From Gammaproteobacteria bacterium (lineage in GTDB: Bacteria; Pseudomonadota; Gammaproteobacteria; Steroidobacterales; Woeseiaceae), in the NCBI GenBank assembly GCA_029865385.1, contig JAOUGX010000009.1, positions 1 through 64,000 on the forward strand: DNA of 64,000 bases, in the 5' to 3' direction. Within the stretch, counting starts at the first letter, position 1. Every line of letters begins with the position of its first letter. The position numbers were made by a program, and so were the translations under genes. The notes under the pieces were generated by a model that made no database searches, was not told where the DNA came from, and saw only the letters and a list, made by a program, of their open reading frames with translations. Positions 34,569-37,346 of this stretch are shown piece after piece.

Positions 34569-35726
34569 TCAGGTATCGGCCGTTTTCTCCAGCAGCTCCG
34601 ATTCGGTCTCGACCCCTGCGTAGTACACCCAGACGTTTTCTTCCCCGGTCAGCAACTCGATGTACTTGGGGTGTACGAATAACGTCTCACGCCCGGACTT
34701 GTACTCGCGAAGAATGCCGATGTCGCAAAGTTGCTTGAGGTATACCGACGCTGTCTGCCGCTGTGCGATATTCGCCGTAACCAGATTCTGGATCCGGCAA
34801 TAAGGCTGCTTGAACAAAGCCTCAATCAACTCCCAGGAATACGTCTTGGGTAGCTGGGACTGTACGAACTGGCCGGTATGCTGCATCAATTCGCGAATCG
34901 CCTTGATCTTTTCCGTGGTCCAGGTGCAGGTCTCCTGCACGCCATCCAGCATGAAAAGTATCCAGGGTTCCCAGGCCTGGTCTGCGGTCACGTCGAGCAA
35001 CAGCCGGTAATAATCGGCCTTGTGTTCGATGATGTGGCGGCTGAGATAGAGAATGGGCGAATCGAGCAGGCGTTGTTCGACGAGGAAAAGGATGTTCAGG
35101 ATACGCCCGGTTCGTCCGTTGCCGTCGGTGAACGGGTGGATCGCTTCGAACTGGTAGTGCTGGATCGCCATGCGGATCAGTGGATCGATGTCCGTGTTCT
35201 CGTGCATGAATGCCTGCCAGTTTTCCAGCTTTTGTTGAATCAGGCTTTGGCCTGTGGGGGGCGTATAGATGACCTTGCCGGTCTTGCGATTGGTCAGCTT
35301 CGTCCCAGAATCAGCTCGAATGTCCAGCTCTATATCTTTGATAGTGCTACAAATTTGAATCGCCATGTCGGTGGTCAGCATACGACGCTGCACCATCTTG
35401 CTGCCTTCGAACAAGGCCGTTCGGTAGCGCAGAGCCTCTTTGGTCGCCGGGTCGGCCTTGTCCTCGGCGATCCCGACAAACTCGAACAGTTTGTCGGTCG
35501 TCGTCACGATGTTTTCGATTTCCGAACTGGCGCGGGCTTCGAGCAGCGGCAGGGCATTGACCAGTACCGCCGAATTCGGGATCAGCTCCGCTGCCTGCTT
35601 GAGTTCCGCCAGGGCGACCCTGGCTTCGATGCAGCGCTTTAAAATCTCTTTGTTTTCAACCATTTCTACCGGCGGAGGCAAGTCTGGTAATGAGTTGTAA
35701 GGGATGCTGGGATCAAAATCGGACAT
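34569..35726 (-). CDS. Class II Fic family protein with C-terminal winged helix
   Basis: The protein has 385 residues from the ATG at 35726, with GGAG 7 bases upstream. A Fic_N region at the start contains an inhibitory helix motif SSEIEN (residues 67-72, fitting S/TxxxE-G/N). The catalytic loop [12 protein letters not shown] is at 197-208, and a DNA-binding-like winged helix lies at about 290-350. Fic enzymes transfer AMP or other phosphate groups onto target proteins; the N-terminal motif marks a class II, self-inhibited form. An array of six palindromes upstream suggests tight autoregulation, perhaps by the protein's own winged helix (inference). Confidence 0.93.
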
Positions 35727-35756: not shown

Positions 35757-35961
35757 TCGACATGTAGGGTCTATATGTCGATAAACAGCAGATATTTCGA
35801 CATATACGGACAATCCGTCGTCGAAATCGACAGGTCCTGACAATATGTCGAAAAAACAGCAATAAATCGACACATGCCTGAATTCTGTTCATCACGTCGA
35901 CATGCCCCCTAAATATGTCGATAAACGGTCCTTTTTTCGACAGGTGCGGAGTATATGTCGA
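35757..35961. repeat. Array of six phased 25-bp palindromes with 70-bp period upstream of fic
   Basis: The unit is TCGACA-N13-TGTCGA, 25 bp. Sites start at 35757, 35797, 35827, 35867, 35897 and 35937, so the starts alternate 40 and 30 bp apart, an exact 70-bp period repeated three times. Ten of twelve half-sites are perfect. The two exceptions are the right half of the second site (CGTCGT, 35816) and of the fourth (TGTTCA, 35886). Steps of 30 and 40 bp are close to whole helical turns, so a protein would line up on one DNA face. The array fills most of the 318-bp gap between fic and the M20 gene. Confidence 0.85.
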
Positions 35962-36044
35962 TCCGCTGGACAGAAAAGTGACACAGGTTCAGGTCCGGGC
36001 AGCCAGGCGCCCCCGGAGCGCAAGATTATGTCAAGCGCTGCAGA

Positions 36045-37346
36045 TCAGCGGGCATCCGGATAATCGAGCACAAATCCAACGTGGGCGCGCACGCCGACTA
36101 TCAACGCGTCTTCGTTGGAATCAAAAAACGGCGAGTGATTGGCAGGTGCCTGGCCGGCTGCAACGCCTTCCTTGTTGATACCGAGCATCAGGTATAGGCC
36201 CGGGATGCGTTTCTGGAAATACGAGTAATCCTCTGCGCCGGTAATCAGGCCGTGCTCAACGACCTTGTCCGCTCCGGCTGCCCATTGCAGCGACGGCATC
36301 ATCTTCTGCAGCAGCGCCGGATCGTTTCCGGTTACCGGTGTCGATCCGCCGATCGTGACTTCCGCCGTAGCGCCCGCCGCTTCGGCGATCAGCGTGACGG
36401 TCTTTTTGAGCTTCGCGTGCAGCTGCTCGCGGACGCCGGCATCGAACGTGCGGATGGTCCCGTCCATGACCACATCGTCTGGGATGATATTGCCGCGAAC
36501 GCCGCCGTGAATGCTGCCGATCGTGATGACGGCCGGACCTTTGGTGCTATCCAACTGCCGGCTCGGAATAGCCTGCAGTGCGGTCATGACCTGCGCGGCA
36601 ACGCTGATCGGATCGACACCGGCCCATGGCGACGAACCGTGTGTCTGGCGTCCCTTTATGACGATTCGCAGACTGTCCGCCGCGGCCATGAAACTCCCGG
36701 CGCGGTAATTGAGGGTTCCCGCCGGCACCGGCCATGCGTGCAAGCCGAAGATCGCCTCTGGCGCATCCGGCCCGTCCAGTACCCCTTCCCGGATCATCAT
36801 CTCGGCACCGCCGTCCTCGTTTCCGGGCGGACCTTCCTCGGCGGGCTGGAAGATGAATTTGACGGTGCCGCGGATGCGATCCCTATTTTCAGCCAGCACT
36901 TCGGCGGCCCCCATCAGCATCGCGACATGCGTGTCATGACCGCAGGCATGCATGACATCGACCTCGTTGCCGTTGTATTCACCCTTGGCTTTCGACGCGA
37001 AAGGCAGCCCGGTTTGCTCGCGAACAGGCAGACCGTCCATATCGGCGCGAAGCGCGACCACGGGACCCGGTTGTCCGCCTTTCAGCGTGCCAACCACGCC
37101 GGTATGAGCGATGCCCGTTTCCACTTTGTCGAATCCCAGCGATCGCAGATGACTTGCCACTTTTTCTGCAGTGCGAAATTCCCGGTTCGACAACTCGGGA
37201 TTCTGGTGGATGTCGCGCCGCCATTCGATGACTTTCGGCTTCACGGAGGCAAAGGACTCGTCGAGTGCCTGTCCTAATCCCTGAGCGAATAACTCGGCGG
37301 CTGGCAACACGAGTGCAATGGCAACAACAATCCGTGAAATCTTCAT
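36045..37346 (-). CDS. Exported M20 family amidohydrolase (hippurate hydrolase-like)
   Basis: The protein has 433 residues from the ATG at 37346, which opens a signal peptide (SRIVVAIALVLPAAELFAQ). The M20D motif HACGHDTHVAMLMGAAEVL carries the Cys/His zinc ligands and AEEGPPGNEDGGAEMM the acidic pair. Family members split N-acyl amino acids such as hippurate or indole-acetyl conjugates. Export fits a periplasmic scavenging role. It is divergent from the ToxR-type regulator gene, which may control it. Confidence 0.93.
   Translation of the reverse strand: MKISRIVVAIALVLPAAELFAQGLGQALDESFASVKPKVIEWRRDIHQNPELSNREFRTAEKVASHLRSLGFDKVETGIAHTGVVGTLKGGQPGPVVALRADMDGLPVREQTGLPFASKAKGEYNGNEVDVMHACGHDTHVAMLMGAAEVLAENRDRIRGTVKFIFQPAEEGPPGNEDGGAEMMIREGVLDGPDAPEAIFGLHAWPVPAGTLNYRAGSFMAAADSLRIVIKGRQTHGSSPWAGVDPISVAAQVMTALQAIPSRQLDSTKGPAVITIGSIHGGVRGNIIPDDVVMDGTIRTFDAGVREQLHAKLKKTVTLIAEAAGATAEVTIGGSTPVTGNDPALLQKMMPSLQWAAGADKVVEHGLITGAEDYSYFQKRIPGLYLMLGINKEGVAAGQAPANHSPFFDSNEDALIVGVRAHVGFVLDYPDAR

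Follow-up and report, generated by a model that had tools for sequence, protein, structure and literature searches.

A 70-bp lattice of inverted half-sites upstream of a SoFic-type fic gene in Woeseiaceae: a probable autogenous operator

The stretch of DNA analysed here in full, referred to below as the window, comprises 64,000 nucleotides (positions 1 to 64,000 of contig JAOUGX010000009.1, assembly GCA_029865385.1) from a gammaproteobacterium of the family Woeseiaceae. It carries a fic gene (34569..35726, minus strand) that encodes a class II Fic adenylyltransferase of 385 amino acids, an orthologue of SoFic, and an array of inverted hexamers that spans positions 35757–35961 (205 bp) and begins 30 bp from the start of fic. 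Very probably, this array serves the SoFic gene as its autogenous operator, with the Fic protein binding the array and repressing its own promoter. This reading is drawn from sequence comparison and brings together the fixed lattice of the half-sites, their linkage to fic, their uniqueness in the bacterium's own genome, the coincidence of an operator module with a promoter spacer, the covariation of half-sites with the recognition helix, and the precedent of the Fic protein CccR.

A half-site lattice with a 70-bp period

The window contains six palindromes of the form TCGACA-N13-TGTCGA, each 25 bp long, which start at positions 35757, 35797, 35827, 35867, 35897, and 35937, and are thus separated by steps of 40, 30, 40, 30, and 40 bp. 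A preliminary description had reported these palindromes and steps, ten exact half-sites out of twelve, and the 30-bp distance to fic, all of which we confirmed. Four palindromes are exact (the first, 35757..35781; the third, 35827..35851; the fifth, 35897..35921; and the sixth, 35937..35961, which includes a predicted −10 box), and the remaining two have exact left halves and two mismatches each, with right halves CGTCGT (the second, 35797..35821) and TGTTCA (the fourth, 35867..35891). The ten exact hexamers within 205 bp form by far the densest cluster in the window, the next unrelated cluster holding three, and palindrome matches with at most two mismatches number 19 across the window against 3.7 expected. 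This density, along with the genome-wide uniqueness described below, rules out a chance origin.

The repeating object is not the 25-bp palindrome alone, because the everted pairs with N15 and N5 gaps show the same regularity as the N13 pairs. It is instead a lattice of half-sites with successive steps of 19, 21, 19, and 11 bp, which sum to 70 bp. At each of the 58 distinct fic loci of Woeseiaceae, at least five exact half-sites lie within 300 bp (mean of 9.2, compared to 0.48 in dinucleotide shuffles), and the distances between these half-sites are almost only 19 bp (TCGACA to TGTCGA) and 21 and 11 bp (TGTCGA to TCGACA), with like half-sites 30, 40, and 70 bp apart. Preferences in the flanking bases stretch each half-site to about A-TCGACA-Y-R-T. 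The spacing had also been taken as a sign of cooperative binding on one DNA face, a view that does not hold: at 10.5 bp per turn, 40, 30, and 70 bp correspond to 3.8, 2.9, and 6.67 turns, and with a period of 6.67 turns the array winds around the helix, so that its sites do not all lie on one face. Among the half-site steps themselves (about 1.8, 2.0, 1.8, and 1.05 turns), only those of 21 and 11 bp are near-integral.

The fic product is a SoFic-family protein with a winged helix

The fic product contains Pfam domains PF13784, PF02661, and PF21248 (Fic_N, Fic, and a C-terminal SoFic-like winged helix), matches the SoFic family model NF046030 of NCBIfam over its full length (597.5 bits; cut-off of 550), and is called SoFic by PADLOC (3.4e-121). 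In phmmer, it matches the SoFic structures 9tch/3eqx, and its AlphaFold2 model (mean pLDDT of 74.5) resembles Shewanella SoFic (3zcn) in Foldseek. The Fic motif HPFx[D/E]GNGRxxR begins at H197, and the inhibitory motif of class II, [S/T]xxxE[G/N], reads S67SEIEN72; the two motifs are found in 153 and 150 of the 155 aligned relatives, respectively. By these sequence features, the product is a full member of the SoFic family in which the catalytic motif and the class II inhibitory motif are both intact. The winged helix is recognized by the PF21248 match (4.7e-35) and by helices 312–317 and 323–335 and strands 340–344/347–351 of the model, which places the predicted recognition helix at about residues 323–335 and the predicted wing at residues 340–351.

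The array is linked to fic

In a set of 107 family genomes, exact arrays (a double palindrome with a 5–15 bp gap) are present in 54 of the 65 genomes with fic and in none of the 42 without it (Fisher P-value = 7e-20, which is descriptive, since the genomes are related). Some of the 42 genomes that lack fic are incomplete. Among the array matches listed for these genomes, all sit directly upstream of fic with one apparent exception, the fic-less array of genome G062, where the contig terminates inside the start of fic. In the whole genome to which the window belongs, a 46-bp pattern of three half-sites has six matches with at most two mismatches, all of them in the array, and matches with three mismatches are scattered. 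Hence, neither of two doubts raised at the outset was borne out, namely that the motif might be scattered without link to fic and that related fic loci might lack such sites: the pattern is unique to fic in its own genome, and the sites recur at related fic loci.

The genes upstream of fic belong to 93 families across 146 loci, so that the conserved object is fic plus its array. Because these upstream genes are of mixed orientation, control of a neighbour by the array is unlikely.

The lattice travels with the gene beyond Woeseiaceae

Outside the family, a significant lattice was detected at 37 of 41 distinct loci of clade A (49–72 per cent identity), with TGTCGA as the half-site in 28. Its carriers in clade A include Alcanivorax (L091), plasmids of Mesorhizobium (L183 and L184), and a plasmid of Cedecea (L186). 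In a sister clade of SoFic-like proteins with 40–45 per cent identity, the lattice is significant at 31 of 56 loci, at several of them weakly. Some loci of that clade (L150, L193, L213, and others) have TGTATA/TATACA inverted repeats with a period of about 40–41 bp and no 11-bp step.

Chromosomal fic genes of the SoFic family occur in 278 of 5,426 complete Escherichia coli genomes. At the one E. coli locus that was read (L240:912-1431), a 70-bp unit that has TGTCGA and TAAACA as its half-sites is present in 7.4 copies upstream of fic, and a stretch nearly identical to this array is found in 233 E. coli genomes. The encoded protein matches PDB entry 9vjc across all 358 residues, a code that is named in the paper on the E. 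coli enzyme EcSofic (PMC12249575). The promoter of the Shewanella SoFic gene itself was not located in the sampled genomes.

On three alphaproteobacterial plasmids (L183, L184, and L185), the SoFic gene adjoins a site-specific integrase, and two of the three have plasmid replication or partition genes nearby, which suggests that the SoFic gene moves as an accessory cassette. Two SoFic paralogues lie about 66 kb from each other in one genome (L241 and L242); as each has its own lattice, the paralogues may cross-regulate.

Under a different explanation, a regulator encoded elsewhere (e.g. a repressor of the GntR or TetR type) binds the array and controls fic. Binding by Fic is something that we infer, and many dimeric repressors typically have sites of this kind, with hexamers inverted across a fixed gap. 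On the other hand, the array accompanies fic across orders, on plasmids, and beside unrelated genes; it is at no other locus in its own genome; fic itself encodes a DNA-binding domain; and no co-transferred regulator was seen beside fic. We therefore regard a separate regulator as improbable. The earlier proposal that the winged helix of Fic could be the binder gains from the linkage to the gene, from the horizontal spread together with it, and from the half-site changes that match changes in the recognition helix.

A predicted promoter is embedded in the array

The 11-bp step of the lattice creates a 17-bp module, TGTCGA-N5-TCGACA, which has the ideal length of a sigma-70 promoter spacer, and at many clade-A loci this module is flanked by −35-like and −10-like hexamers. 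Promoter-like arrangements of this kind are TTGACC-[TGTCGCTGTGAACGACA]-TAAACT at L096 (and likewise TTGACC...TAAACT at L170), TTGACA-[TGTCGATGTTATAGACA]-TATTCT at L140, TTGACG...TAAGCT at L138, and GTGACA-[TGTCGATGACAACGACA]-TATTAT in E. coli. At L235, where the half-site is TGCACT, the arrangement is TTGACA-[17 bp]-TATTCT.

In Woeseiaceae, TATACT follows the outermost 17-bp module at about 50 of 58 loci and does not follow the inner modules, and the distance from the outermost module to the ATG varies by steps of about 70 bp between relatives. From these two features, we read the array as the likely outcome of tandem duplication of a promoter-operator unit with retention of the outer promoter. 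The window follows this pattern: on the minus strand, a predicted −10 box of the fic promoter (TATACT, 35950..35955) lies at the outer edge of the array, preceded by the operator module TGTCCA-N5-TCGACA as the predicted spacer (35956..35972) and, before it, by CTTTTC in the position of the −35 box (35973..35978), a poor match to TTGACA. As in CccR-type regulation, inverted repeats thus overlie the promoter of fic, here a predicted one.

A unit that looks tandemly expanded, with module-to-ATG distances that differ by 70-bp steps, would also be expected of a selfish or structural repeat (a miniature inverted-repeat transposable element, a repetitive extragenic palindrome, a variable-number tandem repeat, or a repeat resembling clustered regularly interspaced short palindromic repeats [CRISPR]) that came to lie beside fic by accident. 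Yet the array is missing elsewhere in the genome and from the 42 fic-negative relatives, and its units have diverged except in the half-sites (Tandem Repeats Finder detected no tandem repeat in the window), whereas spacing and half-sites survive large divergence of the protein. We regard this explanation as very improbable. A CRISPR array proper was rejected because conservation is confined to the hexamers and no tandem repeat was detected, with no search made for cas genes.

The palindromes could alternatively form hairpins in the leader RNA of fic and so control translation or termination. Since the promoter predicted for Woeseiaceae lies at the outer edge, transcription would indeed cover most of the array. 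However, the everted N15 and N5 pairs match the N13 pairs in regularity, and at the E. coli locus, as at many others, the promoter-like module adjoins the gene, with most of the array upstream of the module. In addition, an Rfam scan gave no match above threshold. Control through RNA structure is accordingly very improbable.

Half-sites covary with the recognition helix

A lattice finder applied locus by locus revealed that the half-sites differ by lineage while the 19/21 spacing stays constant. The finder tried only TGTxyz hexamers and so assumed a TGT core; a prior scan of all hexamers gave the same motifs. The half-sites are TGTCGA, TGTCGC, TGTTCA, TGTGCA, and TGTTCG in clade A, and TGTATA, TGTTAA, and TGTAAA in the 40–45 per cent clade. 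The recognition helices read KRQTASVYL with TGTCGA, RQAASRYL with TGTCGC, SR[LI]TATKYL with TGTATA, [ST]RQTAAKYL with TGTTAA, and RPTATKYL or RPTAMKYL with TGTAAA. In clade A, the positions that best discriminate between half-sites include 322, 325, and 328, all three on the same face of the helix.

Several observations weigh against autoregulation by Fic. Enrichment of motif-associated columns across the whole helix is not significant (Mann-Whitney test; P-values = 0.27 and 0.19), for which reason we relied only on the class-diagnostic positions 322, 324, 325, 327, and 328, and other alignment columns score equally high. A test of independent pairs had too few independent switches to reach significance: the clade-A tree has eight half-site changes, and for the GC class a single independent pair is well supported. 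Arg328 alone is also found with TGTCGA (L091 and L172). Beyond the helix, many loci of the 40–45 per cent clade are without a significant lattice, and the −35 box of Woeseiaceae is poor. One report (PMC10628234) states that SoFic had not yet been shown to bind DNA, and our literature search returned no paper showing sequence-specific DNA binding by SoFic. Given the equally high scores of other columns, the few independent switches, and the lack of helix-wide enrichment, the covariation supports the view that Fic reads its own operator without being decisive.

A possible mechanism

EcSofic dimerizes via its N-terminal helices, and its toxicity is under the control of the C-terminal domain (PMC12249575). 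If the SoFic protein of the window behaves similarly, dimers bridged through the N-terminal helices would set the recognition helices of their two C-terminal winged helices on neighbouring half-sites. Such dimers would fill the lattice cooperatively and occlude the promoter against RNA polymerase, and the toxic AMPylator would thereby be held at a low, self-limited level. Expansion and contraction of the array by 70-bp promoter-operator units would tune both the strength of repression and the amount of Fic held on the DNA.

A more speculative role, which we consider rather unlikely, is that of a DNA 'antitoxin' or reservoir. SoFic dimers bound to the lattice would be inactive or deAMPylating through contact of the winged helix with the AMPylase domain, array length would set the amount of stored toxin, and stripping or titration of the DNA (e.g. 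during phage takeover) would release the active enzyme.

The conserved lattice bears on how SoFic-type toxins of phage defence stay quiet, and it names the candidate sites, the expected register, and the residues. The putative DNA-binding domain is the same domain that is reported to control EcSofic toxicity (PMC12249575), and the presence of the same lattice before the E. coli gene makes the proposal immediately testable there. The half-sites, which differ by lineage, would also provide a naturally occurring code for the specificity of this winged helix.

Relationship to known Fic systems

In class I FicTA toxin-antitoxin modules, a toxic Fic protein is tightly controlled, and autoregulation is typical. 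The protein of the window differs from these modules in that an inhibitory helix and a putative repressor domain are combined in one polypeptide, so that no separate antitoxin gene would be needed for autorepression.

The closest functional parallel is CccR of Yersinia pseudotuberculosis, a class II Fic protein with a C-terminal helix-turn-helix, which represses its own promoter by binding AGATAATCAT-N26-ATGATAATCT within it, as proven by footprint, gel shift, and lacZ assays (PMC9755527). Both cases pair a Fic enzyme that has its own DNA-binding domain with inverted repeats at its own promoter. However, CccR uses a single palindrome, in contrast to the 70-bp lattice of TCGACA half-sites with N5, N13, and N15 gaps, and CccR is a type VI secretion system effector that is distant from SoFic (29 per cent identity at 45 per cent coverage; PMC9755527). 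The array does not contain the CccR operator, as both half-sites and gaps differ. We infer that the array works like the CccR system but is not a CccR operator.

SoFic and EcSofic are anti-phage AMPylases (PMC3667792; PMC12249575), and the window protein is a member of their family, in which the gene of the E. coli member has the 7.4-copy array with the same 70-bp lattice. The work on EcSofic deals with catalysis, toxicity, dimerization, and the AS1 antitoxin, and the accessible part of the paper contains no study of an operator or the native promoter (PMC12249575). In Coxiella burnetii, the class II Fic protein CbFic2 has a winged helix-turn-helix, and DNA binding changes its activity and oligomeric state; that work used random DNA only, and no specific site is known (PMC10628234). 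A search of the literature, which left most subscription papers and preprints outside its reach, turned up neither a SoFic operator nor an operator lattice of 70 bp, nor any account of the array in E. coli. The preliminary description had claimed that no Fic operator of this form was known; CccR already provides a case of Fic autorepression (PMC9755527), and what appears to be undescribed for the SoFic family is an array that is phased, can expand, and embeds a promoter.

Other genes

The gene upstream of fic encodes an M20 peptidase (36045-37346, minus strand). Its 3' end precedes fic, and the 318-bp gap between the two genes contains the array. Control of the peptidase gene by the array was rejected because it is the end of that gene, not its start, that lies at the array, and because the neighbours of fic vary.

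A second Fic gene in the same genome (L005, contig C184) is unrelated to fic and has a C-terminal end resembling a helix-turn-helix. No TCGACA lattice was found upstream of it, and a link of the array to this gene was rejected. Elsewhere in Woeseiaceae, one fic copy (L131) carries an in-frame stop.
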